Under the pieces are notes generated by a model. The model saw only the letters and a list, made by a program, of their open reading frames with translations. It did no database searches and had not been told where the DNA came from. Made by a program: the position numbers and the translations under genes. 64,000 nt of DNA from Sinomonas mesophila. GTDB taxonomy: Bacteria > Actinomycetota > Actinomycetes > Actinomycetales > Micrococcaceae. Positions 19,617 to 64,000 of the stretch are shown here, in pieces (position 1 is the stretch's first letter; each line of letters starts with the position of its first letter). The stretch is taken from assembly GCF_001999765.1 (NCBI RefSeq), contig NZ_KV908323.1, positions 252,585-316,584 on the forward strand. Reading direction: 5' to 3'.

Positions 19617-19773
19617 GGGGTCACCTCCCAACGTTGCGGGGTCACCTCTCAGCGTTGCGGAGCCAACGTCCTGACGATGGCCCCGGATCCCAGGGAGGCG
19701 ACCCCGGATCCCAGGGAGCTGACTCCGGATCGCAGGGAGGTGACCCCGGAAGGCAGGGACCTGACCCCGCAAC
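19617..19773. repeat. 21-bp GGGGTCA repeat array R1
   Basis: Units of 21 bp with core GGGGTCACCTCCC: two good and one degenerate forward unit (19617-19679), then four to five units in reverse complement (GGGAGGTGACCCC form) to 19773. It fills the convergent gap between the MerR gene and the D-threonine-aldolase-like gene. Confidence 0.9.
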
Positions 19774-19789
19774 GGGGAGGGGAAGCCGG

Positions 19790-20890
19790 CTACTTGTTCC
19801 GCCCGCGGGCGGCCACGCGCCACCGGCCCACGACCTCTCCGCCGCTGACGACGGCGACGTCGTCCACGAGGTTCACCGCGACGCACACGTGGTTCGGGAT
19901 GACCCGGACGCGCTCGCCGAGCGCGGGCAGGTCGGCGCCGTCGGGGAAGACGACTGTCGCGTGGTGCTCCGACAGCGCGGTGATGAGGGCCTCGGGATGG
20001 TCCGCGAGGCGCCCGAACCCCGTCGCCCAGGCGGGCCGGTCGCCGCCGATCACCTTGCTGCCCGCGTCGATGACGATGCGACGGGGGACCTCGCCCTCGC
20101 CCTCGTGCCGGCTCACGACGGTCGCGGCGATGGTCAGCGCGATGTCCTCGGGTTCGCAGCGTCCGAGCTCGAGCTGCTGCGCGTCGCCGAAGACGTAGAC
20201 GCCCGGGCGAACCTCGGTCGTCGCGCCGGACTCGGTCAGCAGCGCGCTCGGCGTGGACCCGCCGCTCACGCGCGTCACGTCGAAGCCCGCACCCGCGAGG
20301 GCCCCGGCGGCCTCGGCGAGGGCGCGCTGCTCCTGGCCCGCGGCCTCGACGGGCATCCCCGGCGCGTACGACTGCCCCGGGAAGGTGAAGACCCCGGCGA
20401 CCCGAAGCCCCGCCCCGGCTGCGGCCCGCGCGACCTCAGCCGCCCGCCCGGGGAGGACGCCGCTGCGGTGGTGGCCGCTGTCGACCTCGACGAGCACCTC
20501 GATCCGCCCCGCGGCGTCCCCGAGCGCCGCGCCCATCGCCGCCGCGGCTTCGACGGAGTCGGTGCCCACGGAAACTCTGGCCCGCTCGCTCAGCGCCCGC
20601 AGCCGCTCCGCCTGCCGCGGCCCGACCCACAGCGGGTACGCGATGAACAGGTCCGCGACCCCGTGCTCGGCGAACACCTCCGCCTCGCCGATCGTCGCGA
20701 CCGTGAGCCCCACCGCCCCGGCCTCGAGCTGCAGCGCCGCGATCTCGGGGATCTTGTGGGTCTTCGCGTGCGGGCGCAGCGCGAGGCCCTTCGCCCGCAC
20801 GGCCTCGGCCATCCGCGTGACGTTCCGCTGCAGGACGTCCCTGTCCACCATGATCTCGGGCGTGTCGATGTCGTCAGGGACGGTGTTCAT
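19790..20890 (-). CDS. D-threonine aldolase/alanine racemase-fold PLP enzyme
   Basis: The 366-residue protein has the fold-III PLP lysine in RPHAKTHK (about residue 46) and a C-terminal beta domain carrying the metal-binding His-x-Cys of D-threonine aldolases in PNHVCVAVNL. Glycine-rich SGGSTPSAL binds the PLP phosphate. Members cleave D-3-hydroxyamino acids or dehydrate D-serine, with a divalent metal. GAGGAG lies before the ATG. A -10-like TAGGCT occurs at 20924-20929. The gene is monocistronic and its stop abuts repeat array R1. Confidence 0.87.
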   Translation of the reverse strand: MNTVPDDIDTPEIMVDRDVLQRNVTRMAEAVRAKGLALRPHAKTHKIPEIAALQLEAGAVGLTVATIGEAEVFAEHGVADLFIAYPLWVGPRQAERLRALSERARVSVGTDSVEAAAAMGAALGDAAGRIEVLVEVDSGHHRSGVLPGRAAEVARAAAGAGLRVAGVFTFPGQSYAPGMPVEAAGQEQRALAEAAGALAGAGFDVTRVSGGSTPSALLTESGATTEVRPGVYVFGDAQQLELGRCEPEDIALTIAATVVSRHEGEGEVPRRIVIDAGSKVIGGDRPAWATGFGRLADHPEALITALSEHHATVVFPDGADLPALGERVRVIPNHVCVAVNLVDDVAVVSGGEVVGRWRVAARGRNK

Positions 20891-20969
20891 GGGGCACTCC
20901 TCGCAGGTCCGGGTAGAACCCCAGCCTAGGTGGGCGCACGACGGCGGGTGCGCGCCCGGCGTCGTGCGC

Positions 20970-22298
20970 TCACCGTTCCGGCGACTCGGCGACGTCCTCG
21001 TTCAAGGCCTCGACGCCCCCGCCATCCTGCAGGGCCCTGTCCAGCGGGTGGGCGAGTTCGTCCGAGGGCATGCGCGCGGCGACGATCGCGACGAGCGCCA
21101 TGATCGGGCACACCCCGCCGGCCACGACGAAGATGAGCCACAGCGGCAGCACCTCCGCGAGCGGGCCGGCGAGGGCCATCGAGACGGGCATGAACGCGAG
21201 CGAGACGAAGAAGTCCAAGCTCGAGACGCGCCCGAGCAGGTGCGGCGGCACGCGCCGCTGCAGGAGCGTTCCCCAGATGACCGTGCCGAAGGACCAGCTT
21301 GCGCCGAGCACCGCGAGCGCGCCAGCGAGCTGCCAGAACGCGTCCATGAGCCCCACGAACACGAGGGGGATCGACCCCACGCCCCACACGGCGACCATGA
21401 GCGTGAGGTAGCGGCGCGGGAGCCGGAACGACGCCGTCACGAGGGAGGCTGCCGCGCTCGCGACCCCCATCGTCGCGAGCGCGAGGCCGAAAACGGCCGA
21501 GTCTCCGCCGAGCTGGTCCCGCACCACGAACGGCAGCAGCACCTCGATCGGCCCCATCATGAACAGCACCGAGAAGCACGCCCACAGGAGCGTCCACAGG
21601 AGCCACGGGGTCCGGACGGTGTACGCGATGCCCTCGCGCAGCTCGTGGAGGATGGAAGGGCGCGCGACGGCGATGGGGCCGCCGTCCGCGGCCGGCTCGC
21701 CGTCGGGTGCGGGCCTGGACAGGAAGTTCAGGGCGATGAACGCGATGACGTGGCACGCCGCGACGCCCGCGACGGCGTGCGGGGGCGAGAGCGCCGCGAC
21801 CACGAGGCCCGCGGCGGCCGGTCCCGCGGCCTGCTGCAGCATCGGGCGCAGGGTGCCCTCCATGCCGTTCGCGGCGAGGAGGTCCTCGGGCGGGAGGATG
21901 CGCGGCAGGATCGCCGAGTAGGCCGGGAAGAAGAACGCCGCGCCGACGCCGAGCGCGAACGCCGCGACCGCGATGTGCCAGATCGCGAGCCAGCCGAGCG
22001 CGGCGAGGACGGCGACGGTGCCGACGGAGGCGAGGTTCACGGCCTCGACGGCGATGATGAGCCGCCGCTGCGGGATCCTGTCGGCCGCGACGCCGCCGGC
22101 GAGGACGAAGGCGGTGAGCCCAACGCTCATCGACGCGGCCACGAGGGACAGCTCGAGCGGCCCTCCGTCCAGGGCGAGGACCTGGTAGACCATCGCAACG
22201 GCCCACATGCCCGAGCCGAAGATGCTCACGGCCAAGGCGGCGATGAGGACCCGATACTCCCGGTGCGCGAAGGGGCGGAAAGCGCGAGGTGCGGCCAC
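20970..22298 (-). CDS. MFS exporter, EntS-like
   Basis: The 442-residue, 12-segment protein begins FRPFAHREYRVLIAALAVSIFGSGMWAVAM, matching the start of the EntS/siderophore-exporter-like MFS family, and has GGVAADRIPQRRLI between segments 2 and 3. It has a hydrophilic central loop and an acidic tail. The GTG start is supported by a leaderless promoter. No siderophore genes are nearby, so the substrate is unknown. Confidence 0.85.
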   Translation of the reverse strand: MAAPRAFRPFAHREYRVLIAALAVSIFGSGMWAVAMVYQVLALDGGPLELSLVAASMSVGLTAFVLAGGVAADRIPQRRLIIAVEAVNLASVGTVAVLAALGWLAIWHIAVAAFALGVGAAFFFPAYSAILPRILPPEDLLAANGMEGTLRPMLQQAAGPAAAGLVVAALSPPHAVAGVAACHVIAFIALNFLSRPAPDGEPAADGGPIAVARPSILHELREGIAYTVRTPWLLWTLLWACFSVLFMMGPIEVLLPFVVRDQLGGDSAVFGLALATMGVASAAASLVTASFRLPRRYLTLMVAVWGVGSIPLVFVGLMDAFWQLAGALAVLGASWSFGTVIWGTLLQRRVPPHLLGRVSSLDFFVSLAFMPVSMALAGPLAEVLPLWLIFVVAGGVCPIMALVAIVAARMPSDELAHPLDRALQDGGGVEALNEDVAESPER

Positions 22299-22304
22299 CC
22301 GTCA

Positions 22305-22310
22305 AGTCTA
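22305..22310 (-). promoter_or_regulatory. Leaderless -10 element of the EntS-like gene
   Basis: TAGACT ends six bases before the GTG start, so transcription should begin at or next to the start codon. Confidence 0.55.
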
Positions 22311-22431
22311 GGACCGCCGTCGTGCGACCCGCCCGGGGCCGCGAAACACAGAGGACACCTTCTGTCCGCACGTCCGCCGAGGACCGGCCCACCCCGCCGC
22401 CCGAGCCCTGACACATGTCCGAGGCCGTGCG

Positions 22432-22437
22432 TAGGCT
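22432..22437 (+). promoter_or_regulatory. Leaderless -10 element of the VOC gene
   Basis: TAGGCT followed by GGGGCCC and the ATG at 22445. This favours 22445 over the in-frame ATG at 22415. Confidence 0.55.
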
Positions 22438-22444
22438 GGGGCCC

Positions 22445-22819
22445 ATGCGGATCAAGATGTGCTCCCTTCACGTGACCGACCCGGCCGCCGCGCACGCCTT
22501 CTACACCGGCACGCTCGGCTTCGACACCCTCCTGGCGATGCCGGAGGCGAACCTCTTCATTGTGACCTCGCCGGATTCCGGCGGCGTCGGGCTGCTGCTC
22601 GAGCCGAGCGACAACCCGATCGGCGAGTCGTACCGCAAGGGCGTGTACGACGCCGGCCTCCCGGCGATCGTGCTCGGCTCGCCGGACGTGCGGGCGGACT
22701 ACGAGCGGCTCAGCGCCGCGGGCGTCGGCTTCCGCGGGGAGCCCACCGAGGACCCGTCCGGTCTGTCCGCGGTCTTCGACGACGGCCACGGCAACCTCAT
22801 CCAGCTCCACCAGGACTGA
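22445..22819 (+). CDS. VOC-family (glyoxalase-like) protein
   Basis: The 124-residue single-domain protein has the paired beta-alpha-beta-beta-beta modules of the vicinal oxygen chelate superfamily: HVTDPAAAHAFYTGTLGF at the N-terminus, SPDSGGVGLLLEP, and DDGHGNLIQLHQD at the C-terminus, which supplies typical metal or substrate residues. Members isomerise, cleave dioxygen or bind drugs; the specific activity cannot be assigned. It is monocistronic, and the hairpin-forming repeat at 22833-22879 follows at once. Confidence 0.85.
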   Translation: MRIKMCSLHVTDPAAAHAFYTGTLGFDTLLAMPEANLFIVTSPDSGGVGLLLEPSDNPIGESYRKGVYDAGLPAIVLGSPDVRADYERLSAAGVGFRGEPTEDPSGLSAVFDDGHGNLIQLHQD

Positions 22820-22832
22820 CCGCTCACGGCAG

Positions 22833-22968
22833 GGGACGTGACCCCTCAATCAAACCTTCCGGTTGAGGGGTCACATCCCGTGCGTTGAGTGGCCACTTAT
22901 GAGTCTTGCGGGGTCACGTCCCTGCGTTGCGGGGTCACCTTCCAACGATGCGGGGTCAGTTCCTACCG
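22833..22968. repeat. 21-bp GGGGTCA repeat array R2 with long hairpin
   Basis: A reverse unit (22833-22849) and a forward unit (22863-22879) make a 17-bp stem with one mismatch around a 13-base loop. Degenerate and good forward units follow to 22968, the last overlapping the stop codon of the convergent MFS gene. The hairpin can act as a terminator for the VOC gene. Confidence 0.85.
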
Positions 22969-24471
22969 CCGCGCCGTCGCGAGCCTGAGCCTCCAGGCCC
23001 GGGGCGCCGCCGCGACGAGCAGGCCCACGACCGCGACCGCCGTGCTCAGCGCGAGCCCGGGGAGGAAGACGGTGAGCATCGCCGCCGCGTCAGCGACCCC
23101 TGCCCCGCCTCCGACAGAACCCCCGCCGTCCGCGGCGTGCCCGCCGGCGGCGACGATCGCCGTCGTCACCGCGAGGACGAGCGCCGCGCCGACCTGCGTG
23201 CTGGTCTGGATGAGCCCGGCCGCGAGGCCCTGCTCGGAGTCGTGGATGCCGGCGGTCGCCTGGACGTTGATCGCCGGGAACCCGAGGGCGAACCCGACGC
23301 CGAGCAGCAGCACCGAGGGCAGGATGTCCACGACGTAATTCGGCGAGGTGTCGATCTGCAGGAACCACAGGTATCCCGCGGAGAGCGAGATCAGGCCCGT
23401 GATGATGAGCCGCGTCGCGCCGAAGCGGTCGATGAGCCGCCCCGCGAAGGGCGCAGAGCTGGCCACCATGAGCCCTGCCGGGAGGAGCGCGAGGGCCATC
23501 GCGAGCGGTGCCCAGCCGAGAACCGACTGCAGGTACAGCGTCACGATGAACTGGAAGCTCAGGTACGAGCCGAACAGGGCCACGGCGGCGATGTTCGCCC
23601 GCGCGACCCAGCCCTCGCGCAGGATCCCGAACCGGATGAGCGGGTGCCGCACCCGCGACTCGATCACCGCGAACGCCGCGAGCACGGCTGCGGAGAGCGC
23701 GAAGCCGCCGATCGTCTGCGGAGACGACCACCCGGCGTCGGGCGCCGAGACGACGGTGAAGACGAGCCCGAGCATGCCGAGCGCGAGGGTGACGGCGCCC
23801 CAGACGTCGTGCCCGCCATCGGCCGCGGGCTTGTCCCGCGGGATGTAGCGCAGGCCGAGGACGATCGCGGCGACGGCGATCGGCACGGAGAAGAGGAAGG
23901 TCCAGCGCCAGGAGAGCGCGGTCATGAGCCCGCCGACGACGAGCCCTAGCGAGAAGCCCGAGGCGCCGAAGGTCGTGTAGATCGAGATGGCGCGGTTGCG
24001 CTCGCGGCCCTCGGCGAACGTCGTGGTGATGATCGAGAAGCCGGTCGGCGCGGTGAACGCCGCCGCGAGGCCCTTGACGAAGCGCGTCGCGATGAGCAGC
24101 GCCGGGTCGCTCACGAGCCCGCCGAGCAGGGACGCCGCGGCGAAGACCGTGAGCGCGATGAGGAAGATCCGGCGGCGGCCGAGCAGGTCCGCGAGCCGCC
24201 CGCCGAGCATGAGCAGGGAGCCGTAGCCGAGCACGTAGCCGGACACGATCCACTGCAGCGCGCCCGTGCCGAGGCCGAGCTCGTGGCCGATCGATGGCAG
24301 GGCCACGCCGACCATCGAGACGTCGAGCCCGTCGAGCGCGAGGACCACGCAGAGGGTGGTCAGGAGGAGCCACTGCGCGCGGCTCCAGCGCACGACGGCG
24401 CCAGGCCGGGTCGAGCTTCCGGCGGTGGGAGTGGGTGGGAGTGCAGTCAGGGACGAGAGATCCTGTGCCAT
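22963..24471 (-). CDS. DHA2-type MFS drug exporter (14 segments)
   Basis: The 502-residue protein has 14 predicted membrane segments, the motif GGRLADLLGRRRIF after segment 2, LDGLDVSMVGVALPSI in segment 1 (motif D1-like) and GASGFSLGLVVGGLM (antiporter motif C-like) in segment 5. This fits proton-coupled multidrug exporters of the EmrB/QacA group. It is divergent from a MarR gene 87 bp away, which probably represses it. The last codons and stop lie in repeat array R2. Confidence 0.92.
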   Translation of the reverse strand: MAQDLSSLTALPPTPTAGSSTRPGAVVRWSRAQWLLLTTLCVVLALDGLDVSMVGVALPSIGHELGLGTGALQWIVSGYVLGYGSLLMLGGRLADLLGRRRIFLIALTVFAAASLLGGLVSDPALLIATRFVKGLAAAFTAPTGFSIITTTFAEGRERNRAISIYTTFGASGFSLGLVVGGLMTALSWRWTFLFSVPIAVAAIVLGLRYIPRDKPAADGGHDVWGAVTLALGMLGLVFTVVSAPDAGWSSPQTIGGFALSAAVLAAFAVIESRVRHPLIRFGILREGWVARANIAAVALFGSYLSFQFIVTLYLQSVLGWAPLAMALALLPAGLMVASSAPFAGRLIDRFGATRLIITGLISLSAGYLWFLQIDTSPNYVVDILPSVLLLGVGFALGFPAINVQATAGIHDSEQGLAAGLIQTSTQVGAALVLAVTTAIVAAGGHAADGGGSVGGGAGVADAAAMLTVFLPGLALSTAVAVVGLLVAAAPRAWRLRLATARR

Positions 24472-24493
24472 GCCGACGACAATACATGACGCA

Positions 24494-24504
24494 TCATTGA
24501 ATGA
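24494..24504. promoter_or_regulatory. Candidate MarR operator
   Basis: TCATTGAATGA is a perfect inverted repeat in the 87-bp gap between the exporter and marR-like genes. The surrounding sequence is unusually A/T-rich for this genome. Confidence 0.45.
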
Positions 24505-24545
24505 CCAAGAAAAAGATGACATGGAAAAATATTCCGCTGTCTTGG

Positions 24546-24551
24546 TACACT
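24546..24551 (+). promoter_or_regulatory. Leaderless -10 element of the MarR gene
   Basis: TACACT, then a seven-base spacer GGGGGGC and the ATG at 24559. Confidence 0.55.
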
Positions 24552-24558
24552 GGGGGGC

Positions 24559-24939
24559 ATGTCCACGGAGGCCAGGCCCGAGATCATCGACCAATGGCGC
24601 GCGCTGCAGTGCGTGTACCTCAAGACGTCGAATGCGCTGGACCGAGAGCTCTCGGCCCAGCATGGGATCGGGCTCAACGAGTTCGAGACCCTCGACCTGC
24701 TCTCGGAGCGCAGCGAGGAGGGCTGCCGGATGAAGGACCTCACGGCGGTCTCGCCCATGACCCAGAGCGCGCTGTCCAAGATCGTCGACCGGCTCGAGAA
24801 GGCCGGCTACGTCACGCGCGCGGCGTGCGCGGACGATCGTCGCTCGCTCTACGTCGGGCTCACCGAGGCCGGCTGCGCCGTGCACGCCAAGGCCGCGGCG
24901 CTGCACCGCGAGCTCCTCGAGGCGAACCTGGCCGGCTGA
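24559..24939 (+). CDS. MarR-family transcriptional regulator
   Basis: The 126-residue protein is a short MarR with the winged helix at residues ~30-95: FETLDLLSERSEEGCRMKDLTAVSPMTQSALSKIVDRLEKAGYV and the wing CADDRRSLYVGLTEAG (both quoted as adjoining blocks). MarR proteins dimerise and release DNA on binding phenolic or drug ligands. It is divergent from the DHA2-type exporter, so it likely controls that gene and itself. Array R3 begins 12 bp after its stop. Confidence 0.92.
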   Translation: MSTEARPEIIDQWRALQCVYLKTSNALDRELSAQHGIGLNEFETLDLLSERSEEGCRMKDLTAVSPMTQSALSKIVDRLEKAGYVTRAACADDRRSLYVGLTEAGCAVHAKAAALHRELLEANLAG

Positions 24940-24950
24940 GCCCAGGGCCC

Positions 24951-25155
24951 GGGGTCACCTCCCAACGTTGCGGGGTCACCTCCCAACGTTGCGGGGTCAT
25001 GTCTCAACCTTGCGGGGTCATGTCTCAAGGATGCGGAGGCTATGTCCTGAGGATGTTGGGCGCCGCCTGTGCCGGCATCTCCTGCACAGGTGACCCCGCA
25101 ACGCAGGGAGGTGACCCCGCAACGCAGGGAGGTGACCCCGCAACGCCCTGGGGTC
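24951..25155. repeat. 21-bp GGGGTCA repeat array R3
   Basis: Five contiguous forward units (24951-25055, the last degenerate), a central non-repeat segment of about 31 bp (25056-25086), then three reverse-complement units ending near 25155. The first two forward units are identical. The array fills the gap between convergent marR-like and DUF5997 genes and gives a potential large stem-loop. Confidence 0.93.
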
Positions 25156-25168
25156 GGATGGGGCCGGC

Positions 25169-25624
25169 TCAGCCGTGGCTGCCGCCGCGCTTGGCCCGCT
25201 CTGCCGCAGCGCCGTGCCGGGCGCCGGCCGACCGGGCCGCCTTCTCCTCCGCCGCGGCCTTGACCCGCCGGGCCTCCTCGCGCACGGCGGCCATGCTCGC
25301 CCGCTCCTCCTGGAGCCACTGCGGCCGGTCCTGCAGCAGCGCGGTGATCTCCGCCGTCGTGAGCGGCTCGGTGATGCCCGCCCGCGCGAGGCCCGAGATC
25401 GAGACGTTGAGCTTCTGCGCGACCACGGGCCGCGGGTGCGGTCCCTGGGCCAGCAGCTCGGACAGCCACGCCGGCGGGTTCTGGCGCAGGGCGTCGAACT
25501 CCTCGCGCGTGATGTCGCCCTCTTGGAATTCCGCGGGGGCCGCGGGCAGGTAGATGCCGAGCTTCTTAGCGGCAGTGGCCGGCTTCATGGACTGGGAGGC
25601 GCTGGCCTTGGGGTTCGAGCTCAT
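25169..25624 (-). CDS. DUF5997 family protein
   Basis: The 151-residue protein matches the actinobacterial DUF5997 pattern: AAKKLGIYLPAAPAEFQ, then REEFDALRQNPPAWLSELLAQGPHPRPVVAQKLNVSISGLARAG, with a helical Lys/Ala/Glu-rich tail (residues ~110-151). The VAQKLNVSISGLARAG block looks like a helix-turn-helix recognition unit. Function is unknown. It is divergent by 31 bp from a LysR-like ligand-binding protein lacking a DNA-binding domain, a neighbourhood known in related genomes, so the two may act together. Confidence 0.85.
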   Translation of the reverse strand: MSSNPKASASQSMKPATAAKKLGIYLPAAPAEFQEGDITREEFDALRQNPPAWLSELLAQGPHPRPVVAQKLNVSISGLARAGITEPLTTAEITALLQDRPQWLQEERASMAAVREEARRVKAAAEEKAARSAGARHGAAAERAKRGGSHG

Positions 25625-25630
25625 GCATCA

Positions 25631-25636
25631 AGCCTA
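25631..25636 (-). promoter_or_regulatory. Leaderless -10 element of the DUF5997 gene
   Basis: TAGGCT with six bases to the ATG at 25624. Confidence 0.55.
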
Positions 25637-25643
25637 GCCGGGC

Positions 25644-25649
25644 TACCGT
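25644..25649 (+). promoter_or_regulatory. Leaderless -10 element of the LysR-like gene
   Basis: TACCGT with six bases to the ATG at 25656. It is back to back with the DUF5997 promoter, eight bases away. Confidence 0.55.
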
Positions 25650-25655
25650 TGACGC

Positions 25656-26405
25656 ATGGAGTCCCCCGAACCCCTCAAGATCGCCTTTGTTGCGGGCGTC
25701 GCCCCCGGCAAGTGGTTCCACCGCTGGGAGGACCGCTTCCCCGAGGTGCCGCTCGCCTCGGCGATGGTCGACGACGGCGAACAGCTCGCCGTCCTGGGCG
25801 ACGGCCGGGCGGACATCGCCTTCGTGCGCCTGCCCGTAGGGGACGAAGACAGGGAGCGCCTGCACATCATCCCGCTCTACGAGGAGCTGCCGGTCGTCGT
25901 CGCGCCGAAGGGCCACGAGATCCAGGCCTTCGATGAGATCCCGCTCGCCGAGGTCGAGGACGAGCTCTTCGAGTACGACGGCGGGCCCTCCGAGCGCCTC
26001 GACCTCGTCGAGGGCGGGGCGGGGCTCGCGATCATGCCGATGTCGGTCGTGCGGCACTTCAACCGCAAGGAGCTCCGCTACCGGCCCGTGACCGGGGTCG
26101 AGCCCTACGGGGTGGGGGTCGCGTGGCTCAAGGACAACGAGTCCGAGGCCATTCAGGAGTTCATCGGCGTGGTCCGCGGGCGCGGGGCGAACAGCTCCCG
26201 GCAGGCGTCCGTCCAGCGCGGCCAGCAGGAGGCCGCGAAGGAACGTCGGGCCGAGCGCGCCGCGTCGCAGTCCAAGGAGGCCAAGGCGCGCAACGACGCC
26301 AGCCGCGCTGCCAAGGCGGCCCGCGGCGGCCGGGGCGGCGCCAAGGGGAGGCCTGCCGCGGGGAAGGGCAAGCGCCCGGGCGCGGCCCGCCGTCGTCCGC
26401 GCTGA
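25656..26405 (+). CDS. LysR-type substrate-binding domain protein without HTH
   Basis: The 249-residue protein begins directly with the periplasmic-binding fold of LysR effector domains (LKIAFVAGVAPGKWFHRWEDRFPEVPL...) and keeps the hinge region GGAGLAIMPMSVVRHF, but the N-terminal helix-turn-helix is absent. Residues ~185-249 form a highly basic Lys/Arg/Ala/Gly tail (AKGRPAAGKGKRPGAARRRPR) suited to nucleic-acid binding. It has no signal peptide. It may be a ligand-sensing partner of the DUF5997 protein encoded divergently (inference). Confidence 0.83.
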   Translation: MESPEPLKIAFVAGVAPGKWFHRWEDRFPEVPLASAMVDDGEQLAVLGDGRADIAFVRLPVGDEDRERLHIIPLYEELPVVVAPKGHEIQAFDEIPLAEVEDELFEYDGGPSERLDLVEGGAGLAIMPMSVVRHFNRKELRYRPVTGVEPYGVGVAWLKDNESEAIQEFIGVVRGRGANSSRQASVQRGQQEAAKERRAERAASQSKEAKARNDASRAAKAARGGRGGAKGRPAAGKGKRPGAARRRPR

Positions 26406-31921: not shown

Positions 31922-31968
31922 GAGCCAATTTAGCCGTCGAGCCAATCTAACTGTCGAGCCAATCAGCC
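31922..31968. repeat. Short tandem repeat upstream of the NUDIX gene
   Basis: Two full 17-bp units beginning GAGCCAAT (31922 and 31939) and a third partial unit at 31956. They sit about 13-60 bp before the NUDIX start. Confidence 0.6.
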
Positions 31969-32756: not shown

Positions 32757-35700
32757 CTAAAGCCTGGCTGCGAGCGCCACCGGGCTCGGGTTGCCGAAGC
32801 GGTGCGCTGTGATCGAGACGGCCTGCTCGCGCAGGAACGGCAGGAGCTCAACCCGCCCCGCGGAGACCACGGGATGCGCGTACAGCGCGACGTCCGGCAT
32901 CCCGTCCACGGCCTCGGCGAGCGCCCGGACGGCGGCGCCCGATGCCTCCGCATCCCCGGCGATGAGGCGGACGCGCCCCGCGCCGAGTCGCGCGGCCCGC
33001 ACGAGCCAGGCCGCCGAGTCCTCGACCTCCACGCCCGCGCCGTGCTGGCGCAGCACCTCCCCCGTGCGCCCGGGAAGTACGACGGCGCTGCTCACCGAGA
33101 GCCGCGACCCCGCCCTGAGGGCGGCAGCAGCGATCCGGAGCAGCTCGGCCACGCCGTGGCCCGACGTCCCGGCCTCGAAGCGGACCGTCATCGGCACAGG
33201 GCGGTAGCGGAACACGTTGCGCTCGCACGTCAGGCCCGTGACGTCCTGGGCGGCGCCGAACTCCGCGGCCCAGGCCGCGGCGTCCGAGCCGACCGCCGAA
33301 GCCAGCCACGCGGCGTCGTCCGCGGAGAGGCCGGCGCCGACGGCTGCCCGCGCGGCGCCGAGGAGCTCGACGGCGGCGTGGTGCAGACCGCGCCCACCCG
33401 CCGGGGTGCCGGGCTCGCGCACCGGGGCGTCCCGCCACGAACCGAGGCCCACGAGGTAGTTTGGCCCGCCGGCCTTCGCACCCGCCCCCACGGCAGACCT
33501 CTTCCACCCCCCGAAGGGCTGCCGCCTGACGATCGCGCCCGTGATCCCGCGGTTGACGTACAGGTTGCCGGCCTCAAGGTGCTCCGCCCAGTAGCCGATC
33601 TCGTCGGCGTCGAGCGAGTGCAGGCCCGACGTGAGGCCATAGTCGACCTGGTTCACGAGGGCGACGGCCTCCTCGAACGTCGCGGCCGTCATGACGCCGA
33701 GGATCGGGCCGAAGTACTCGATGCGGTGGTACTCCGAGCCGGGCCGGACGCCCGAGCGAACGCCGGGACTCCAGAGCTTGCCGGTGTCGTCGAGGGGCCG
33801 CGGCTCGAGCACCCAGGCCTCGCCCTCGCCGAGGGCCGTGAGGCCGCGCAGCAGTTTGCCCTGGGGCGGCTCGATGACCGGGCCCATCTGCGACCGGGCG
33901 TCCCACGGGTAGCCGATGTGCAGCGACTGGACCGCGTCGAGGAGCTGGTTGCGGAACCGGCGTGAGGTCGCGACCGAGCCGACGAGGACCACGAGCGACG
34001 CGGCCGAGCACTTCTGGCCCGCGTGCCCGAAGGCCGAGGCCGCGACGTCCCGCGCGGCGAGGTCGAGGTCAGCGCTCGGGGTCACGATGATCGCGTTCTT
34101 GCCCGAGGTCTCGGCCAGCAGCGGCAGATCCTTGCGGAAGGAGCGGAACAGCCGCGCGGTCTCGTACCCGCCCGTGAGGATCACGCGGTCCACGCCCGGG
34201 TGCGCGATGAGCGCCCGGCCGAGGGTCCGGCCAGGCTCGCCGGCCGGGAACTGCACGAGCTGGAGCACGTCGCGGCCCACGCCCGTCTCGGCCGCGGTCG
34301 CGTCGAACGCCTCCCACAGCGCCTCGACCATGACCGCGCCAGAGCGCCGGGCCTGTTTCGCGGGCTTGAGGACGACGCCGGAGCCCGCGGCGAGCGCGGC
34401 CAGGGTCGAGCCGGCCGGGATCGAGACCGGGAAGTTCCATGGCGGCGTCACGACGGTCAGGCGGGACGGCACGAACTCGGCCCCGTCGACGGTGTCGAGC
34501 TCGCGGGCGAGCGTCGCGTAGTAGCGCGCGAAGTCCGCGGCCTCGGAGACCTCGGGGTCGCCCTGGTCGAGCGTCTTGCCGCACTCGCTCGCCATCGCCT
34601 CGAGGAGCTCGGCCCGGCGGGCCTCCAGCGCGCGCCCAGCGGCGTCGAGCACGACGGCGCGCTGGGCACCGGTGAGGGCGCCCCACCGCCCGCCTGCGGC
34701 CGCCGCGGCGAGCACGACGGCGTCGAGCCCGCCCTCGGCGCCGATCTCCGCGGCGTCCGCCGTGTCGACGCCGATCCGGGACGATGCAGAGCGGGCGATG
34801 ATGGCGCGGCCCCACTCCCGGTTGCCTGGGAGGTCCGGATCGGTGTCGGGAGTGTTGGCGAACCCCTCCACACGATGAGGGGTCACCTCCCTGCGATGAG
34901 GGGTCACCTCCCTGCGATGAGGGGTCACCTCCCAGGCTTGCGGGGTCAGATCCCTAGCTTGCGAGGTCAGATCCCTGTGATCCGTGGTCAATGTCTGCGG
35001 ATTGACCCCGGATTCTTGGGAGGTGACCCCGGATTCTTGGGAGGTGACCCCGGATTCTTGGGAGGTGACCCCGGGTCGCAGGGAGGTGACCCCGGATTGG
35101 CGGCGGTCTTGGGTGCGGTGCGGAGCAGGGACCGTCCGCCGGCCGTCGGCGTCGGCGAAGGGCGGGGCGTCGAGGGCGGACAGCGAGGCGAGGAAGCGCC
35201 GCTTCTCGCGCTCGAAAAGGGCCGGGTCCGACCCGAGGCCAAACACGGCGGACATGAAGTTCTCCGGGCTCGCGCCCTCCTCGAGCCGGCGGACGAGGTA
35301 GGCGATCGCGACGTCGAACTCCCCGGGGTGGACGACAGGGGTGTAGAGGAGGAGGTGCCCGACGTCCGCCAGGACGGCCTGCGCCTGCGCCGGGGCCATG
35401 CCCAGGAGCATCTCGAACTCGACCTGGGCTGTCTGCCCGCCCAGCCCGCCCACAGTGATCCCACGGTCGACCCCGCGGGCCTTCGCGAGCAGCCACGCGA
35501 GGGCGACGTCGAACAGGTTGTGCCCCGCGATGCCCACGCGCACATGGGCGAGCCGCTCGGGCGTGAGCGCGTAGTCGAGGACCGCCTTGTATGAGGTATC
35601 CGTCTCCTGCTTGGTGTGCCACGTCGCGAGCGGCCAGCCGTGGACCTCGGCGTCGACGCGCTCCATGGGCCGATTCGCGCCCTTGACCACGCGGATCTTG

Positions 35701-36614
35701 ATCGGCGCGCCCCCGGCCGCGACGCGCCCCGCGGCCCATTCCTGGAGGCGCATCATCGCCCCGAGGGCGTCGGGGAGGTATGCCTGCAGCGCGATCCCGC
35801 CCTCGAGGCCGCGGAACTCCTCACGCCCGAGCAGCCGTGTGAACACGGCGATGGTCAGGCCAAGGTCCTTGTACTCCTCCATGTCCAGGTTGATGAACTT
35901 CGGCGTCCCCGACGGGCCGCCGGCCGCCGCGAGACGGTAGAGCGGGGCGAGCGTGTCGGCGATGTGCTCGACGGCCTCGTCGAAGGCCCAGTGGCTGTGG
36001 GGCGCGACGGTCGCGGAGACCTTGATCGAGACGTAGTCGACGTCGTCGCGCTCGAGGAGCCGGCGCGTGCCCTCGAGCCGCCGGGCCGCCTCACGCTCGC
36101 CGAGGATCGCCTCGCCGAGGAGGTTGAGGTTGAGCCGCACCCCCGGCCGGCGAATCCTCGCGATGGCGGGTCCGAGCCTCTCGTCCGAGGCGTCGACGAT
36201 GAGGTGGCCGACCATCCCGCGCAGCATGCGGCGCGCGAGGGGGACGACGACGTGCGGCAGCGCCGGGGCGAGGGCACCTCCGAAAGCCACGGCCCGGCGC
36301 AGGGGCCAGGGCAGGAAGTCCGGGGACGTCCGCGCGAGGGAGCGGAGGTTGCGTGCGGCGACGCCGAGGTCCTCGGGCCGGACGACGCCGTCGACGAAGC
36401 CGACGGCGAACGCGAGGCCTCCCGGGTCCTTGAGCACGGCGGCGAGCCGGGCCGCCGCGGGATCCACGGGGAACGCGGCCGCGGCGTCGAGCCACGCCCG
36501 GACCTGTGCCACGGCGGCGTCGGCGAGGTCCTGCGGGCGGACAGCCGCGCCGTCCGCGGCCGCGCTCGTGGGCTGCTGATCGCCGGACGCCGGCGCCGGT
36601 GTGTGCTGGCCCAT
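32757..36614 (-). CDS. putA: Bifunctional proline dehydrogenase / glutamate-semialdehyde dehydrogenase PutA
   Basis: The 1,285-residue protein joins both steps of proline oxidation to glutamate. Residues ~80-490 are the FAD-binding PRODH barrel (DVDYVSIKVSA, FINLDMEEYKDL, IKIRVVKGAN). Residues ~590-1090 are the aldehyde dehydrogenase with VVLKPAKQA, ETSGKNAIIV (general base Glu) and GHAGQKCSAAS (catalytic Cys). A further C-terminal domain follows. There is no ribbon-helix-helix, so it is not its own repressor. Residues ~505-583 are encoded by repeat array R4 (GVTSQESG...EVTPHRR), an in-frame insertion between the domains. ATG 36614 is chosen. A LysR gene is divergent. Confidence 0.95.
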   Translation of the reverse strand: MGQHTPAPASGDQQPTSAAADGAAVRPQDLADAAVAQVRAWLDAAAAFPVDPAAARLAAVLKDPGGLAFAVGFVDGVVRPEDLGVAARNLRSLARTSPDFLPWPLRRAVAFGGALAPALPHVVVPLARRMLRGMVGHLIVDASDERLGPAIARIRRPGVRLNLNLLGEAILGEREAARRLEGTRRLLERDDVDYVSIKVSATVAPHSHWAFDEAVEHIADTLAPLYRLAAAGGPSGTPKFINLDMEEYKDLGLTIAVFTRLLGREEFRGLEGGIALQAYLPDALGAMMRLQEWAAGRVAAGGAPIKIRVVKGANRPMERVDAEVHGWPLATWHTKQETDTSYKAVLDYALTPERLAHVRVGIAGHNLFDVALAWLLAKARGVDRGITVGGLGGQTAQVEFEMLLGMAPAQAQAVLADVGHLLLYTPVVHPGEFDVAIAYLVRRLEEGASPENFMSAVFGLGSDPALFEREKRRFLASLSALDAPPFADADGRRTVPAPHRTQDRRQSGVTSLRPGVTSQESGVTSQESGVTSQESGVNPQTLTTDHRDLTSQARDLTPQAWEVTPHRREVTPHRREVTPHRVEGFANTPDTDPDLPGNREWGRAIIARSASSRIGVDTADAAEIGAEGGLDAVVLAAAAAGGRWGALTGAQRAVVLDAAGRALEARRAELLEAMASECGKTLDQGDPEVSEAADFARYYATLARELDTVDGAEFVPSRLTVVTPPWNFPVSIPAGSTLAALAAGSGVVLKPAKQARRSGAVMVEALWEAFDATAAETGVGRDVLQLVQFPAGEPGRTLGRALIAHPGVDRVILTGGYETARLFRSFRKDLPLLAETSGKNAIIVTPSADLDLAARDVAASAFGHAGQKCSAASLVVLVGSVATSRRFRNQLLDAVQSLHIGYPWDARSQMGPVIEPPQGKLLRGLTALGEGEAWVLEPRPLDDTGKLWSPGVRSGVRPGSEYHRIEYFGPILGVMTAATFEEAVALVNQVDYGLTSGLHSLDADEIGYWAEHLEAGNLYVNRGITGAIVRRQPFGGWKRSAVGAGAKAGGPNYLVGLGSWRDAPVREPGTPAGGRGLHHAAVELLGAARAAVGAGLSADDAAWLASAVGSDAAAWAAEFGAAQDVTGLTCERNVFRYRPVPMTVRFEAGTSGHGVAELLRIAAAALRAGSRLSVSSAVVLPGRTGEVLRQHGAGVEVEDSAAWLVRAARLGAGRVRLIAGDAEASGAAVRALAEAVDGMPDVALYAHPVVSAGRVELLPFLREQAVSITAHRFGNPSPVALAARL
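34879..35098. repeat. 21-bp GGGGTCA repeat array R4 inside putA
   Basis: Five to six forward units (34879-34983 plus a degenerate one), a short centre, and five reverse units to 35098, three of them identical (GGATTCTTGGGAGGTGACCCC cycles). It lies wholly within putA and keeps its frame because each unit is seven codons. Confidence 0.93.
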
Positions 36615-36700
36615 GCTGGCTGCTCCTTCCCGCGCGATGGTCTCATCATGCGCCTGCGGGATCGGCCGTCGGTATGCGCGCCCTCCGTTCAAGAAGCAGA

Positions 36701-36716
36701 AGTGATCTTTAGTGAT
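36701..36716. promoter_or_regulatory. Direct repeats in the putA-LysR divergent region
   Basis: AGTGAT occurs at 36701-36706 and 36711-36716, one helical turn apart, followed by ATGCAT. They lie between divergent putA and the LysR gene and may form its binding site. Confidence 0.4.
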
Positions 36717-36779
36717 GCATAATGGTGAGTCAAACCGATCGGTCAGGAACCCACTGGCACTATTGCGAAAGGGCCGCCG

Positions 36780-37700
36780 TTGCTCGAGATCCGCCGCCTC
36801 CGCCTCCTGAGGGAGCTCAGCATCCGGGGCACCCTCGCCGAGGTCGCCGACGCGCTCCAGTACAGCCCCTCCTCCGTGTCGCAGCAGCTCGCCCTCCTCG
36901 AGAAGGAGACGGGCGTCCAGCTGCTGCGCAAGTCCGGCCGCCGCGTGCTTCTCACGCCGCAGGCGCAGGTCCTCGTCGCCCACACCTCGGAGCTGCTCGA
37001 CTCGCTCGAGCGCACCGAGGCCGCGCTCGCCGCGAGCCAGAGCGAGGTCCGCGGCACCGTGCGGCTCGCCGTGTTCCAGACCGCGGCGCTCGCCCTCCTG
37101 CCCGCCGCCCTCAAGACCCTCCGCCAGCGGCACCCGCAGCTGCGCGTCGAGATGGTCCAGCACGAGCCCGAGACCGCCCTGCACGAGACCTGGGCGCGGG
37201 ACTTCGACCTCGTCGTCGCCGAGCAGTACCCGCACCACGCCGCGCCGCACTACTCGGGCCTCGACCGGCAGGGGCTCACGCGGGACACGATCCGCCTCGC
37301 CCTTCCGCCCCGCGGCTCGGGCGCCGAGTTCGACGGCGTCAGGCGGCTTGCCGACGCCGGACGCGTCCCGTGGGTCATGGAGCCGCGCGGCGCAGCCTCT
37401 CGGCACTGGGCCGAGCAGGCCTGCCGTTCCGCGGGCTTCGATCCGGACGTCCGCTACGAGACGGCGGACCTCCAGGCCCACGTCCGGCTCGTCGAGTCGG
37501 GCAACGCCGTGGCCCTCCTCCCGGATCTCGTCTGGGTGGGGCGCGTGCCTGCCGCGCGGCTCGTGATGCTCGAGGGGACGCCGCAGCGCACCGTGTTCAC
37601 GTCCATGCGGTCCTCGAGCGCCCAGCATCCCGTGATGCTCGCGGTGCGGCGCGTGCTCGAAGAGACGGCCCGCCAGCTCGTGGGCCCGGCCGCGGGATGA
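36780..37700 (+). CDS. LysR-family regulator, probably of proline use
   Basis: The 306-residue protein has the N-terminal LysR helix-turn-helix (EIRRLRLLRELSIRGTLAEVADAL, PSSVSQQLALLEKETG; RRVLLT follows) and the effector domain from ~90 (RGTVRLAVFQTAALALLPAAL...). It starts with TTG after GAAAGGG. Divergence from putA and the following putP gene suggest control of proline oxidation and uptake (inference). Confidence 0.9.
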   Translation: MLEIRRLRLLRELSIRGTLAEVADALQYSPSSVSQQLALLEKETGVQLLRKSGRRVLLTPQAQVLVAHTSELLDSLERTEAALAASQSEVRGTVRLAVFQTAALALLPAALKTLRQRHPQLRVEMVQHEPETALHETWARDFDLVVAEQYPHHAAPHYSGLDRQGLTRDTIRLALPPRGSGAEFDGVRRLADAGRVPWVMEPRGAASRHWAEQACRSAGFDPDVRYETADLQAHVRLVESGNAVALLPDLVWVGRVPAARLVMLEGTPQRTVFTSMRSSSAQHPVMLAVRRVLEETARQLVGPAAG

Positions 37701-57854: not shown

Positions 57855-57877
57855 AGGGGCTCTTCGGGCCGGGCGGC

Positions 57878-58363: not shown

Positions 58364-58370
58364 GGAATCG

Positions 58371-58376
58371 AGCCTA
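58371..58376 (-). promoter_or_regulatory. Leaderless -10 element of the second NUDIX gene
   Basis: TAGGCT with seven bases to the ATG at 58363. Confidence 0.55.
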
Positions 58377-58383
58377 CCCGCGG

Positions 58384-58389
58384 TACCGT
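58384..58389 (+). promoter_or_regulatory. Leaderless -10 element of the GDPD gene
   Basis: TACCGT with six bases to the GTG at 58396; back to back with the NUDIX promoter. Confidence 0.5.
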
Positions 58390-58395
58390 GTGCGT

Positions 58396-59163: not shown

Positions 59164-59202
59164 CCGAGTGGCGGAAAACACATTCCGACAATGCCGGGAT
59201 GG

Positions 59203-59208
59203 CATGAT
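59203..59208 (+). promoter_or_regulatory. Leaderless -10 element of the glycerate kinase gene
   Basis: CATGAT with seven bases (GGGGCCC) to the ATG at 59216. Confidence 0.45.
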
Positions 59209-59215
59209 GGGGCCC

Positions 59216-60331: not shown

Positions 60332-60357
60332 CCCACCCCACACCAACCCCCAGATGC

Positions 60358-60688
60358 GGGGTCACCTCCCTCCGATGAGGGGTCACGTCCCAAGGATGAG
60401 GGGTCAAGTCCCAGCGTTGCGGGGTCACCTCCCAAGGATCCGGGGTCACGTCCCAAGAATGCGGAGTCACTGAGATCCCAGGCCAATGATTCACCCGGCC
60501 CGAGATTCGCGCGCGGCCGGCCGGTTGGGCTCGCCCGGACCGTTCCGTGTGAGACGCTTCGCGAGCTGGAAGCCCGAGACTTGAGGCCGCTATGACCCCG
60601 CATTGCAGGGACGTGACCCGGGATCCTTGGGAGGTGACCCCGCAACGCTGAGAGCTGACCCCGGATCCTTGGGAGGTGACCCCGCATT
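60358..60688. repeat. 21-bp GGGGTCA repeat array R5
   Basis: Five to six forward units (60358-60471), a non-repeat centre of about 120 bp, then four reverse-complement units (60592-60688). It fills the convergent gap between glycerate kinase and idi. All frames are largely open because units lack stop codons, which gives spurious long reading frames. Confidence 0.93.
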
Positions 60689-60710
60689 TCAGGCTAGGCC
60701 CGAGGTGCTG

Positions 60711-61241: not shown

Positions 61242-61330
61242 CCCCCCATTCTCCCAGCCGCCGCCGACCACGCCCGCGCCTCGGGCCACGCCCGCGCCGC
61301 CGTCCGCGCCCGCCGTCGTGCGCCCGAGCC

Positions 61331-62644
61331 TCAGTGCGAGGGCCCCTCCTCGACGGCGGCGGGCTCGGTCGCCGGTTCGGCAAGGGTGCCCCGCCACCGC
61401 GCGACCGCCGTCATGCCGTGGAAGACGAGCAGGGCCGCGGCCGAGCCGAGCGCGATGCCCGCGAAGGAGAGCTCACCGAGGTTCCACGTGTAGTCGGCGA
61501 TGCCGACAACGAGCGCGACCGCCGCCGTCGTCAAGTTGATCTGGTTCGAGAAGCTGACCCGGTTCTGCACCCAGATCTTGACCCCGAGCACGCCGATCAT
61601 GCCGTACAGCATCGTCGCGGCGCCGCCGAGGACGCCGGCCGGGACGGTCGCGATGAGCTCGCCGAACTTGGGCGAAAAGCTCAGCGCGAGCGCCGTGCCG
61701 CCTGCGATCCAGTACGCCGCCGTCGAGTAGACCTTGGTCGCGGCCATGACGCCGATGTTCTCGGCGTACGTCGTCGTGCCGGAGCCGCCGCCGACGCCGG
61801 CGAGGACGGTCGCGGCGCCGTCGGCCATGAGCGCGCGGCCGGCCATGTCGTCGAGGTCCTGCCCCGTCATCGCGGCGACGCTCTTGACGTGCCCGATGTT
61901 CTCGGCGGCGAGCACGAGGACGACCGGCACGAAGAGCCCGAGTACGCCGACGTGGAACTCGGGCGTCTGGAAGTGCGGGAGGCCGATCCACGCGGCGGCG
62001 TCGACCTTCGAGAAGTCCACCTCGCCGCGCGCCACCGCGACGCCGTACCCGATGACGACACCGACCAGGATGCTGAGCCGCCCGAGGATCCCGCGGAACA
62101 GGACGGAGACGAGGATGATCGCGAGCAGCGTCACGAGCGCCGTGACGGGCGCGGCGTCGACGTTCGCCTTCGCCGCGGGCGCGAGGTTGAGCCCGATGAG
62201 CGCCACGATCGCCCCGGTCACGACGGGCGGCATGACGATGTTGATCCAATGTGCGCCGAACGCCTGCACGATCCCGCCGACCGCCGCGAGCACGACGCCG
62301 GCCACCACCACGCCGCCGAGCGCGCCGGCGACGCCGAACTGCTGCTGTGACGCCAGGATCGGGGCGATGAACGCGAACGATGACCCGAGGTACGAGGGCA
62401 CGCGCCCGCGCGTCAGGACGAGGAACAGCAGCGTGCCGACGCCCGAGAAGAAGAGCGTCGTGGCCGGGGGCATGTGGGTCAGGATCGGCACGAGGAACGT
62501 CGCGCCGAACATCGCCACGACGTGCTGGAGGCCCACGCCGATCGTGAGCGGCCACGCGAGCCGCTCCTGCGGCGCGACGACCTCGCCGGGGCGCACGGAC
62601 CTGCCGTCGCCGTGAACTGTCCATCGGGTTCCGAGCAGGCTCAT
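61331..62644 (-). CDS. Uracil/xanthine permease, NCS2 family
   Basis: The 437-residue, about 14-segment protein has the NCS2 signatures AENIGHVKSVAAMTG and GGSGTTTYAENIGVMAATKV, and the opening GLQHVVAMFGATFLVPIL typical of UraA-like uracil permeases. The Glu in AENIG binds the base. It is divergent from a RutE-like nitroreductase, which also points to pyrimidine use. Confidence 0.92.
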   Translation of the reverse strand: MSLLGTRWTVHGDGRSVRPGEVVAPQERLAWPLTIGVGLQHVVAMFGATFLVPILTHMPPATTLFFSGVGTLLFLVLTRGRVPSYLGSSFAFIAPILASQQQFGVAGALGGVVVAGVVLAAVGGIVQAFGAHWINIVMPPVVTGAIVALIGLNLAPAAKANVDAAPVTALVTLLAIILVSVLFRGILGRLSILVGVVIGYGVAVARGEVDFSKVDAAAWIGLPHFQTPEFHVGVLGLFVPVVLVLAAENIGHVKSVAAMTGQDLDDMAGRALMADGAATVLAGVGGGSGTTTYAENIGVMAATKVYSTAAYWIAGGTALALSFSPKFGELIATVPAGVLGGAATMLYGMIGVLGVKIWVQNRVSFSNQINLTTAAVALVVGIADYTWNLGELSFAGIALGSAAALLVFHGMTAVARWRGTLAEPATEPAAVEEGPSH

Positions 62645-62882
62645 GGGGCGCCTTCCGAGCGGTGGTGGGGAGGGGGAGGGGACTCCCGGTGCACATCCTA
62701 CCGGCGGGTCACGTCCCGTCCGGGTGCCGGCCCGAGCTGCAGGTGCGCCTCGCGCGGGGGGCGGACGACGCCGTCGTGCGGCGCTGTGGCGAACGTCACC
62801 GGCCCTCACGGGATTCACGCCGGGCGCGCGCCGGTTGCCACGATGGAGAGGGCGGCCGAGGGCGCCGCCGGGAGGAGAAAGC

Positions 62883-63488
62883 ATGAGCATCGCGCACGAC
62901 GAATCTGTCCTCGAGGAGGTGGCGGTCGACGCCCTGTTCGCGCAGGCCCGCACGGCCAATGCGTTCACCGGCGAGGTGACCGACGCCCAGGCCCGGGCCA
63001 TCTACGAGCTCGCCAAGTACGGCCCGACGGCCTTCAACTCCCAGCCGCTGCGCATCACGTACGTGCGCACCGCCGAGGCGCGCGAGCGGCTCGTGCAGCA
63101 CCTGTCCCGGGGAAATCAGGAGAAGACGCGCCTCGCCCCGCTCGTCGCGCTGCTGAGCGTCGACGCCGAGTGGCACGAGCGCTGGGACACCTTCCTGCCC
63201 GCGGCGATCCGCGGCAAGGCCCGGTACGACGCCGACGAGCAGCTTCGCGCCGCCACTGGCCGGGACAACGCGCACCTGCAGGCCGGCTACTTCATCCTCG
63301 CCGTGCGCTCGCTCGGCCTCGCGGCGGGCCCGATGACCGGGGCCGACTTCGCCGCGATCGACGCCGAATTCTTCCCCGGCGGCGACCGGAAGAGCTTCCT
63401 CGTGGTCAACATCGGCAAGCCGGGCGACGACGCGTGGGGCCCGGCGAAGGCCAAGCTCGACTACGAGGACGTCGTCGAGACCGTCTGA
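62883..63488 (+). CDS. RutE-like malonic semialdehyde reductase (nitroreductase family)
   Basis: The 201-residue protein has the FMN-binding nitroreductase fold: YGPTAFNSQPLRITYV at the N-terminus and GYFILAVRSLGLAAGPMTG in the middle, ending FFPGGDRKSFLVVNIGKPG. These match RutE/HadB-type reductases that remove the 3-carbon product of uracil breakdown. The rest of a rut pathway is not in the window. GAGGAGAAAGC lies before the ATG. Confidence 0.88.
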   Translation: MSIAHDESVLEEVAVDALFAQARTANAFTGEVTDAQARAIYELAKYGPTAFNSQPLRITYVRTAEARERLVQHLSRGNQEKTRLAPLVALLSVDAEWHERWDTFLPAAIRGKARYDADEQLRAATGRDNAHLQAGYFILAVRSLGLAAGPMTGADFAAIDAEFFPGGDRKSFLVVNIGKPGDDAWGPAKAKLDYEDVVETV

Positions 63489-64000
63489 GCGGCGCCCCCC
63501 GGGTCGCGGCTCGCCGTCCCGGGGCCGCGTCCCAGCAACGCGGGGTCACCTCCCAGCGTTGCGGGGTCACTTCCCGCGCGGGCGGCCCGCCGCCGGGCGG
63601 CCCAGACGGCGCGCAGCTGCTCGCGAAGCGAACCCTCTCCCCAGCGCACCAGTACGACGACGCCGACGGCACCCGCGACGAGGGCTGCGGTCCCGCTCGC
63701 AAGCAGGGCCCAGCGCGGCCCCGCCGCGCCCGCGAGCCAGCCCACGAGCGGCGCGCCGAGGAACGACCCGCCCTGGATCACCGCCATGTACAGCGCCATG
63801 ACGCGCCCGCGGTACTGTGCGTCGATCGAGAGCTGGATGAGCGTATTGCACCCGTTGAGGAACGTGATCGCCGTGACCCCGACGAGGACCAGCGAGACGG
63901 CGAACCACGCGTATCCGGGCGCGAGCGCCGAGCCGATCGCGGCGAGACCCAACGCGAAGGCGGCCGCGAGCACGAGGGCCATCCGGAGCGACCGCCGCCG
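63461..64000 (-). CDS. MFS transporter, EntS-like (partial, C-terminal part)
   Basis: The gene continues past the right edge; the visible 180 residues are the last membrane segments, with NTLIQLSIDAQYRGRVMALYMAVIQGG, a motif of EntS-like MFS proteins, and WALLASGTAALVAGAVGVVVL. The end (residues after WAARRRAARAG) is encoded by repeat array R6 as SDPATLGGDPALLGRGPG, so the natural C-terminus was probably replaced. The stop overlaps the convergent nitroreductase end by 28 bp. Confidence 0.85.
   Translation of the reverse strand, partial: RRRSLRMALVLAAAFALGLAAIGSALAPGYAWFAVSLVLVGVTAITFLNGCNTLIQLSIDAQYRGRVMALYMAVIQGGSFLGAPLVGWLAGAAGPRWALLASGTAALVAGAVGVVVLVRWGEGSLREQLRAVWAARRRAARAGSDPATLGGDPALLGRGPGTASRDPGGAAQTVSTTSS
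63521..63583. repeat. 21-bp GGGGTCA repeat array R6
   Basis: Three forward units at 63521, 63542 and 63563, the middle one closest to consensus. They lie in the C-terminal coding sequence of the partial MFS gene, 33 bp past the nitroreductase stop. Confidence 0.82.

Follow-up and report, generated by a model that had tools for sequence, protein, structure and literature searches.

The window, by which we mean the whole analysed stretch of 64,000 nucleotides, covers positions 252585-316584 of C3, a 441-kb contig in the genome of the soil actinobacterium Sinomonas mesophila (4.0 Mb, 47 contigs). It contains six arrays (R1 to R6) of a repeated unit with a 21-bp period, which had been pointed out in a preliminary description and were all found at their places, far above chance: 38 matches to GGGGTCANNTCCC with at most one mismatch occur in the window, compared to a mean of 2.2 expected from 100 shuffles (sd 1.6, largest value 6). 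The features are given here in window coordinates.

19617-19650, plus strand: R1 forward block, 2 units
19693-19768, minus strand: R1 reverse block, 4 units
22833-22845, minus strand: leading reverse unit of R2, which could form a stem-loop with the unit at 22867
22867-22879, plus strand: first forward unit of R2
22887-22898, plus strand: class-B unit GAGTGGCCACTT within R2, also numbered C3:275471
22910-22964, plus strand: R2 forward block, 3 units
24951-25026, plus strand: R3 forward block, 4 units
25085-25139, minus strand: R3 reverse block, 3 units, of which the first has 3 mismatches
32757-37628, minus strand: open frame containing putA, whose linker between the Pro_dh and Aldedh domains carries R4; the actual gene start is internal to the frame
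34879-34975, plus strand: R4 forward block, 5 units that are in frame with putA and antisense to it
34984-35009, no strand: R4 centre, imperfect palindrome GTGGTCAAT...ATTGACCCC
34997-35093, minus strand: R4 reverse block, 5 units, of which the first overlaps the centre
60358-60454, plus strand: R5 forward block, 5 units
60587-60683, minus strand: R5 reverse block, 5 units, of which the first has 3 mismatches
63521-63575, plus strand: R6, 3 units, of which the first has 2 mismatches

As described before, R1, R3, R4 and R5 consist of a forward block, a centre and a reverse block, and R2 is opened by a reverse unit; R6 has forward units only. According to a simple codon-based gene finder, R1, R2, R3 and R5 are situated between convergent genes. 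R6 lies 3' of the stop of a plus-strand gene of the nitroreductase family and also within the end of a predicted minus-strand gene, 60 bp before the stop of the latter. Hence, the initial statement that five arrays occupy convergent junctions changes to four clear cases and one at overlapping gene ends. The location of R4 inside putA was confirmed; it lies in frame between the Pro_dh and Aldedh domains and translates as heptapeptide repeats. A second putA-like gene (C6:17428-19422, L171), 71% identical over the query, has a linker without an array. The window also contains a 17-bp tandem repeat, GAGCCAATCTAACCGTC, at 31922-31964, which is unrelated to the 21-bp family.

Core, spacing and dialects of the unit

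Arrays comprise 2-12 units with a constrained core of 11 bases, GGGGTCA..TCCC. The constraint was estimated from triples picked by their outer units (at most one mismatch, 42 bp apart), the middle unit then being compared to the one next to it. Among 98 triples from S. mesophila, 3.9% of the core sites differed, compared to 23.7% in the tail and 25.5% in the two bases within the core (NN); the corresponding values for 73 triples from other Sinomonas were 1.9%, 17.1% and 21.9%. The core thus changes 6-9 times less often than the tail between neighbouring units, with the qualification that the outer units were selected for core match and that the sites are not independent, so that the P values of this comparison are only indicative. 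The most fixed positions are G4, T5, C6, A7 and T10, i.e. the loop and not the stem of any small hairpin. This core constraint is the strongest indication of the unit itself being read. A strand bias among core substitutions (36 C>T at positions 11-13, 25 G>A at positions 1-3) is too weak to be used.

Same-strand neighbours not more than 60 bp apart are spaced by 21 bp in 345 of 363 cases (175/184 in S. mesophila, 170/179 in loci of other Sinomonas). The distances from forward to reverse units follow a 10.5-bp phase in the other Sinomonas (R=0.72, n=15, 0/5000 simulations, one of two close genomes being dropped), also when only distinct distances are counted (n=11, R=0.67, P=0.004). In S. mesophila, phasing fails when each distance is taken once (n=8, R=0.26, P=0.61), and all 14 forward-to-reverse distances are better fitted by 11.5 than by 10.5 bp; the 10.5-bp phasing is seen there only because 7 of the 14 distances equal 55. 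The 55-bp geometry corresponds to a central pair of inner units, which makes a near-perfect palindrome in L210 and L233 and an imperfect one in R4.

It had been proposed that the tails are alike among neighbours and differ between arrays. This holds within a block, where identity amounts to 79% compared to 66% between arrays, but the forward and reverse tails of one element are only 61% identical, so that its two blocks share no recent copy. Among 201 of the 8-bp tails 62 are distinct, the top five accounting for 88; such a small vocabulary does not correspond to the unique spacers that a CRISPR beside cas genes would have. Between species the cores stay common while NN and tails drift, and the dominant NN as well as the base preceding the core vary by species. 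CC is the majority NN in 53 of 66 S. mesophila arrays, and TG in 18/23, 17/23, 10/19 and 4/6 arrays of four other species. The likeness of TCACCTCC to an anti-Shine-Dalgarno sequence was dropped, as it is true of the CC dialect only. The unit consensus further appears to resemble the tRNA T-arm, GGGTTCRANTCCC.

Abundance, taxonomic range and sister classes

In the S. mesophila genome, 106 exact 21-bp doublets were counted and none of the reversed control pattern; at up to three mismatches the number rises to 290 doublets. C3 carries 18 arrays of at least two units, which extrapolates to approximately 164 genome-wide. Of 15 Sinomonas genomes, 9 have exact doublets, compared to none of 280 genomes of other Micrococcaceae. 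With up to three mismatches 11 of the 15 Sinomonas genomes match, two of these with one hit each, and the reversed control then gives 3 hits in two genomes. A scan of 84,980 genomes yielded at least 79 stretches; among the matches listed, 74 are from Sinomonas and 5 from MAGs of other groups. Within the genomes searched, the 21-bp family is chromosomal and almost confined to Sinomonas. No array DNA was found in IMG/VR with doublets of class A (the family described so far) and class C (see below), plasmids gave no match to either class and phages none to class A, and one weak plasmid match of class B in Rhizobium (E=0.01) was taken as chance. A phage or plasmid origin was rejected on these searches. 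A DNA uptake sequence needs abundant single copies, but 51 of the 52 exact units on C3 sit in arrays and singles are nearly absent, and this reading was rejected. Moreover, Rfam gave no match at gathering score in the window and a literature search found no description of the family, which agrees with the earlier remark that no described element with this layout was known.

Class B, GTTGAGTGGCCACCTCTC, has a 22-bp period and forms an array with inverted units at C3:331718-331838 (L129). A genus-level search found it also in G186 and G216, and a family-level search of a sample with 7 Sinomonas genomes gave no match. Among 394 Actinomycetes genomes, that of S. mesophila was the one matched by a doublet pattern that includes B and part of A. 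Class C, CGARATGGGGGYC, has a 21-bp period and shows the order forward, centre, reverse between convergent genes at C3:346300-346650 (L130). C-like arrays at 94 kb and 386 kb of C3 are situated in predicted genes and translate as Ala-rich heptads; these arrays are therefore possibly no more than ordinary protein repeats.

Position relative to genes

All gene calls come from the simple codon-based finder, and some arrays called inside genes may therefore reflect wrong gene ends. Of the 18 arrays of C3, 14 are intergenic (convergent in 8 cases, tandem in 5 and divergent in 1) and predicted genes contain the other 4; the intergenic space is 26% convergent, 41% tandem and 34% divergent. Counted by junction, arrays are carried by 8/68 convergent, 5/225 tandem and 1/67 divergent junctions, which represents a convergent enrichment (8/68 versus 6/292 others, Fisher P=0.0013). 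The 74 array-centred loci of other Sinomonas gave 42 convergent, 24 tandem, 2 divergent, 12 inside and 5 at locus edges, i.e. 42 of 68 intergenic elements are convergent and 2 divergent. A further 48 S. mesophila arrays outside C3, all from loci chosen for arrays, are convergent in 21, tandem in 19, divergent in 5 and inside genes in 3 cases. Measured to the nearest stop codon, the median distance amounts to 12 bp on C3 and to 13 and 12.5 bp in the other two samples; the proposed concentration at gene ends is hence borne out, arrays mostly lying just past stop codons.

Concerning block order, +- was found in 5 and -+ in 2 of the 18 elements on C3, and +- in 19, -+ in 13 and +-+ in 1 of 85 elements elsewhere, the rest having one orientation. 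Single-orientation elements are the commonest kind in the S. mesophila sample (39/54 elements with at least 3 units). The preliminary description had stated that transcripts from both sides meet the unit in the same orientation, because the layout is inverted. On C3 this is true of 41 of the 48 units located at convergent junctions, but in other Sinomonas of only 89 of 156. As a general rule it finds no support: it holds weakly in other Sinomonas, arrays of one orientation are commonest, and divergent, tandem-antisense and intragenic arrays oppose it as well.

Some individual loci deserve mention. An in-frame array occurs in a gene for an HrpB-type helicase at C3:41097-41151 (L118), and other Sinomonas have one apparently at the same place (L050:2738-2813; flanks alike by eye, aligned pair). 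Facing arrays flank a 307-aa ORF of no assigned family in four genomes (L041, L052, L092 and L108; it was listed in three of them and found by alignment in the fourth). At L222:4805-5424 facing arrays enclose a short gene, whose frame by eye resembles a MutT/NUDIX protein.

Turnover and age of the arrays

In the two genomes G197 and G226, which are approximately 98% identical (aligned blocks 96.6-99.9%), all seven compared arrays are kept in place, a sharing that is over-stated since these loci were fetched for carrying arrays. Their unit numbers are 4/8, 1/2, 12/7, 2/7, 5/5, 5/4 and 2/2 and thus differ in five of the seven; in one array the core also changed, from CACG to CACC/CAGG. G061 and G104 were compared over approximately 118 kb of synteny that was not chosen array by array, and both arrays in the aligned parts are common to the two genomes. 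Local amplification, as suggested earlier, is supported, but its recency applies to the unit numbers: array positions are in some cases common to species of no more than 80-92% identity, as seen in a biased sample and in the two arrays of the aligned G061/G104 parts. At places matching R1, R2, R3 and R5, no array of at least two units was found in the relatives compared. Of 14 relatives, 8 have units of class A or B at the R6 place, and in G216 and G186 class B (GTGGCCAC[CT]T) replaces class A. By eye, the putA linkers of four relatives contain a short palindrome of similar sequence, and a fifth has a fainter version, whereas nine lack it.

Discussion

The anatomy of the arrays is firm, while their function is what we infer. 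BIME/REP elements of enterobacteria and pseudomonads are described as dispersed, high-copy, species-specific and located at gene ends, where they occur between convergent genes, are clustered with inverted members and are polymorphic in number (PMC2817692, PMC1525189, PMC3733652). The Sinomonas arrays are alike in being dispersed, high-copy, mainly extragenic, at gene ends and species-specific, and in having clusters with opposite-orientation members and variable unit number. They differ from BIME/REP by units arranged strictly as 21-bp direct repeats, the conserved centre of which is not a palindrome, by array positions shared between species and by the lack of a Y1 transposase in 15/15 Sinomonas genomes. 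With the RAYT link set aside, the family appears by analogy to behave most like a BIME family. Bacterial VNTRs or minisatellites are similar in their tandem arrangement and fast change of unit number, whereas in Sinomonas one family, often mirrored and convergent-biased, occupies ~160 loci (extrapolated from C3) with a protected core. Iteron arrays of plasmid origins are direct repeats spaced by about two helical turns; the Sinomonas arrays share this spacing but are dispersed on the chromosome at gene ends. In Rickettsia, palindromic elements are inserted in frame into genes, which resembles in-frame arrays such as that in putA, but the Sinomonas arrays are mostly intergenic and built of 21-bp units.

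The constant core amid a drifting remainder suggests that something reads the sites. Our tentative reading, with a probability of roughly 0.4, is that the units are sites for a putative sequence-specific DNA-binding factor at gene ends and constitute a REP/BIME-like family without transposase; among the readings considered, it accounts best for the core constraint and the spacing. Each unit would represent one site, and the step of 21 bp, i.e. two helical turns, would bring neighbouring sites onto one face of the helix, so that the factor could bind cooperatively. Bound arrays might mark the ends of genes or insulate them, in particular where two genes converge, possibly by blocking read-through or by holding supercoils as BIME-2/gyrase does. 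Slippage and recombination would alter the numbers of units and carry the present dialect from array to array, and selection would purge units with broken cores and arrays in promoters. It must be mentioned that a fixed 21-bp spacing is also expected from simple duplication, and that promoter avoidance alone would give the same gene-end bias. Furthermore, the 22-bp period of class B, the failure of helical phasing in S. mesophila, the 5 divergent among 48 S. mesophila elements outside C3 and the missing arrays at the R1, R2, R3 and R5 places of the relatives compared speak against protein-read sites.

Two other explanations account for parts of the picture. Inverted arrays could act as large stem-loops, serving as two-way transcription terminators or stabilisers of mRNA 3' ends. 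Folding of elements with facing blocks is indeed far more stable than that of shuffles (mean z -11.5 for 11 elements; mean z -4.7 for 4 elements of the -+ type), and single units can fold at -4 to -9 kcal/mol. The median position 12-13 bp past stop codons fits as well, the units at the R6 place in G006 and G084 directly follow an intrinsic-terminator-like hairpin (by eye), and two terminator-like sites exist in 19001-26000, neither of them at R1-R3. However, the 39 S. mesophila elements of one orientation fold little below shuffles (mean z -1.6), the tails that would pair across a unit hairpin show no covariation, conservation is higher in the supposed loop than in the stem, and forward and reverse tails of one element are 61% alike compared to 66% for different arrays. 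In a crude scan of convergent ends with versus without arrays, U-tract terminators numbered 5/50 versus 22/164 in S. mesophila and 11/86 versus 8/94 in other Sinomonas; being neither commoner nor rarer beside arrays, they led us to discard a replacement of terminators by arrays. The arrays themselves have no regular U tract, which together with a GC hairpin defines an intrinsic terminator. Selection for a long cruciform was also dropped, as forward and reverse blocks are unmatched. Action as RNA would thus explain facing blocks, but not single-block arrays, absent covariation or unchanged terminator counts, and we consider it unlikely. A neutral or selfish minisatellite, in which slippage and recombination multiply functionless units that survive where they are least harmful, is likewise an unlikely account. 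It fits the differing unit numbers of five of seven orthologous arrays in ~98% identical genomes (e.g. 8 versus 4, 7 versus 2), the order convergent > tandem > divergent predicted by harm avoidance, and the persistence of arrays in putA, the HrpB-type helicase gene and others, which is possible since 21 bp keeps the reading frame. Turnover and placement are covered in this way, but not the core constraint: under free drift, a 6-9 fold protection of 11 core positions would not be expected, and cores are shared between species while NN and tails drift.

An origin as mobile-element relics of either kind is improbable. A movement as REP/REPIN elements by a RAYT (Y1 transposase) would be in line with the preference for convergent junctions, which the arrays share with REP clusters (PMC1525189), and with the MAG contig L087 (3113-3906), where GGGGTCAACTCCC repeats lie on both sides of a Y1_Tnp gene (IS200-like, Pfam E=1.7e-16). 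In contrast, Y1_Tnp is absent from all 15 Sinomonas genomes (control genomes were positive in 5/14), no GTAG-type tag was recognised, and hopping REPs predict single exact units, which are nearly absent. The link to a RAYT was tested and not found, so the family is not filed as RAYT-associated REP, and RAYT-driven movement was rejected on the absence of Y1_Tnp. The transposase may have been lost in an ancestor of Sinomonas, but we regard this origin as very improbable. The GGGGTCAACTCCC repeats in L087, an uncultured bacterium and one of the five MAG stretches from outside Sinomonas, share the 13-bp pattern with the Sinomonas unit. Copies in L074 lie in an ORF that presumably encodes an IS256-type transposase. 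There is also a very slim chance that the arrays are remnants of IS21- or Tn7-like transposon ends with repeated transposase sites. Such ends are resembled by facing blocks of direct repeats, and GGGGTCA/GTGGCCA may be likened to IS21-type end repeats, but related DNA was absent from plasmids, phages and IMG/VR (classes as searched) and PF01695 is weak in the S. mesophila genome (6 matches, 2 above cut-off, with the istA/istB context viewed at L032 only).

The core constraint, the 21-bp spacing, the persistence of positions with turnover of unit numbers and the species dialects are new here. Extending the reading as sites of a DNA-binding factor, the family could represent an actinobacterial counterpart of BIMEs: helically phased 21-bp sites at gene ends would be read by a putative genus-specific protein co-evolving with the core (dialects; classes A, B and perhaps C), would form a boundary between convergent genes, and would be kept uniform by ectopic recombination instead of transposition. 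This fuller version is possible, though doubtful. The arrays touch the open questions of how bacterial gene ends are marked and how dispersed repeats stay alike without a transposase. They offer a compact test case, in which a constrained unit with fast turnover and dialects occurs in one genus and related genomes are without the family. If a protein reads the arrays, it would represent a new gene-end or chromosome-organising factor.
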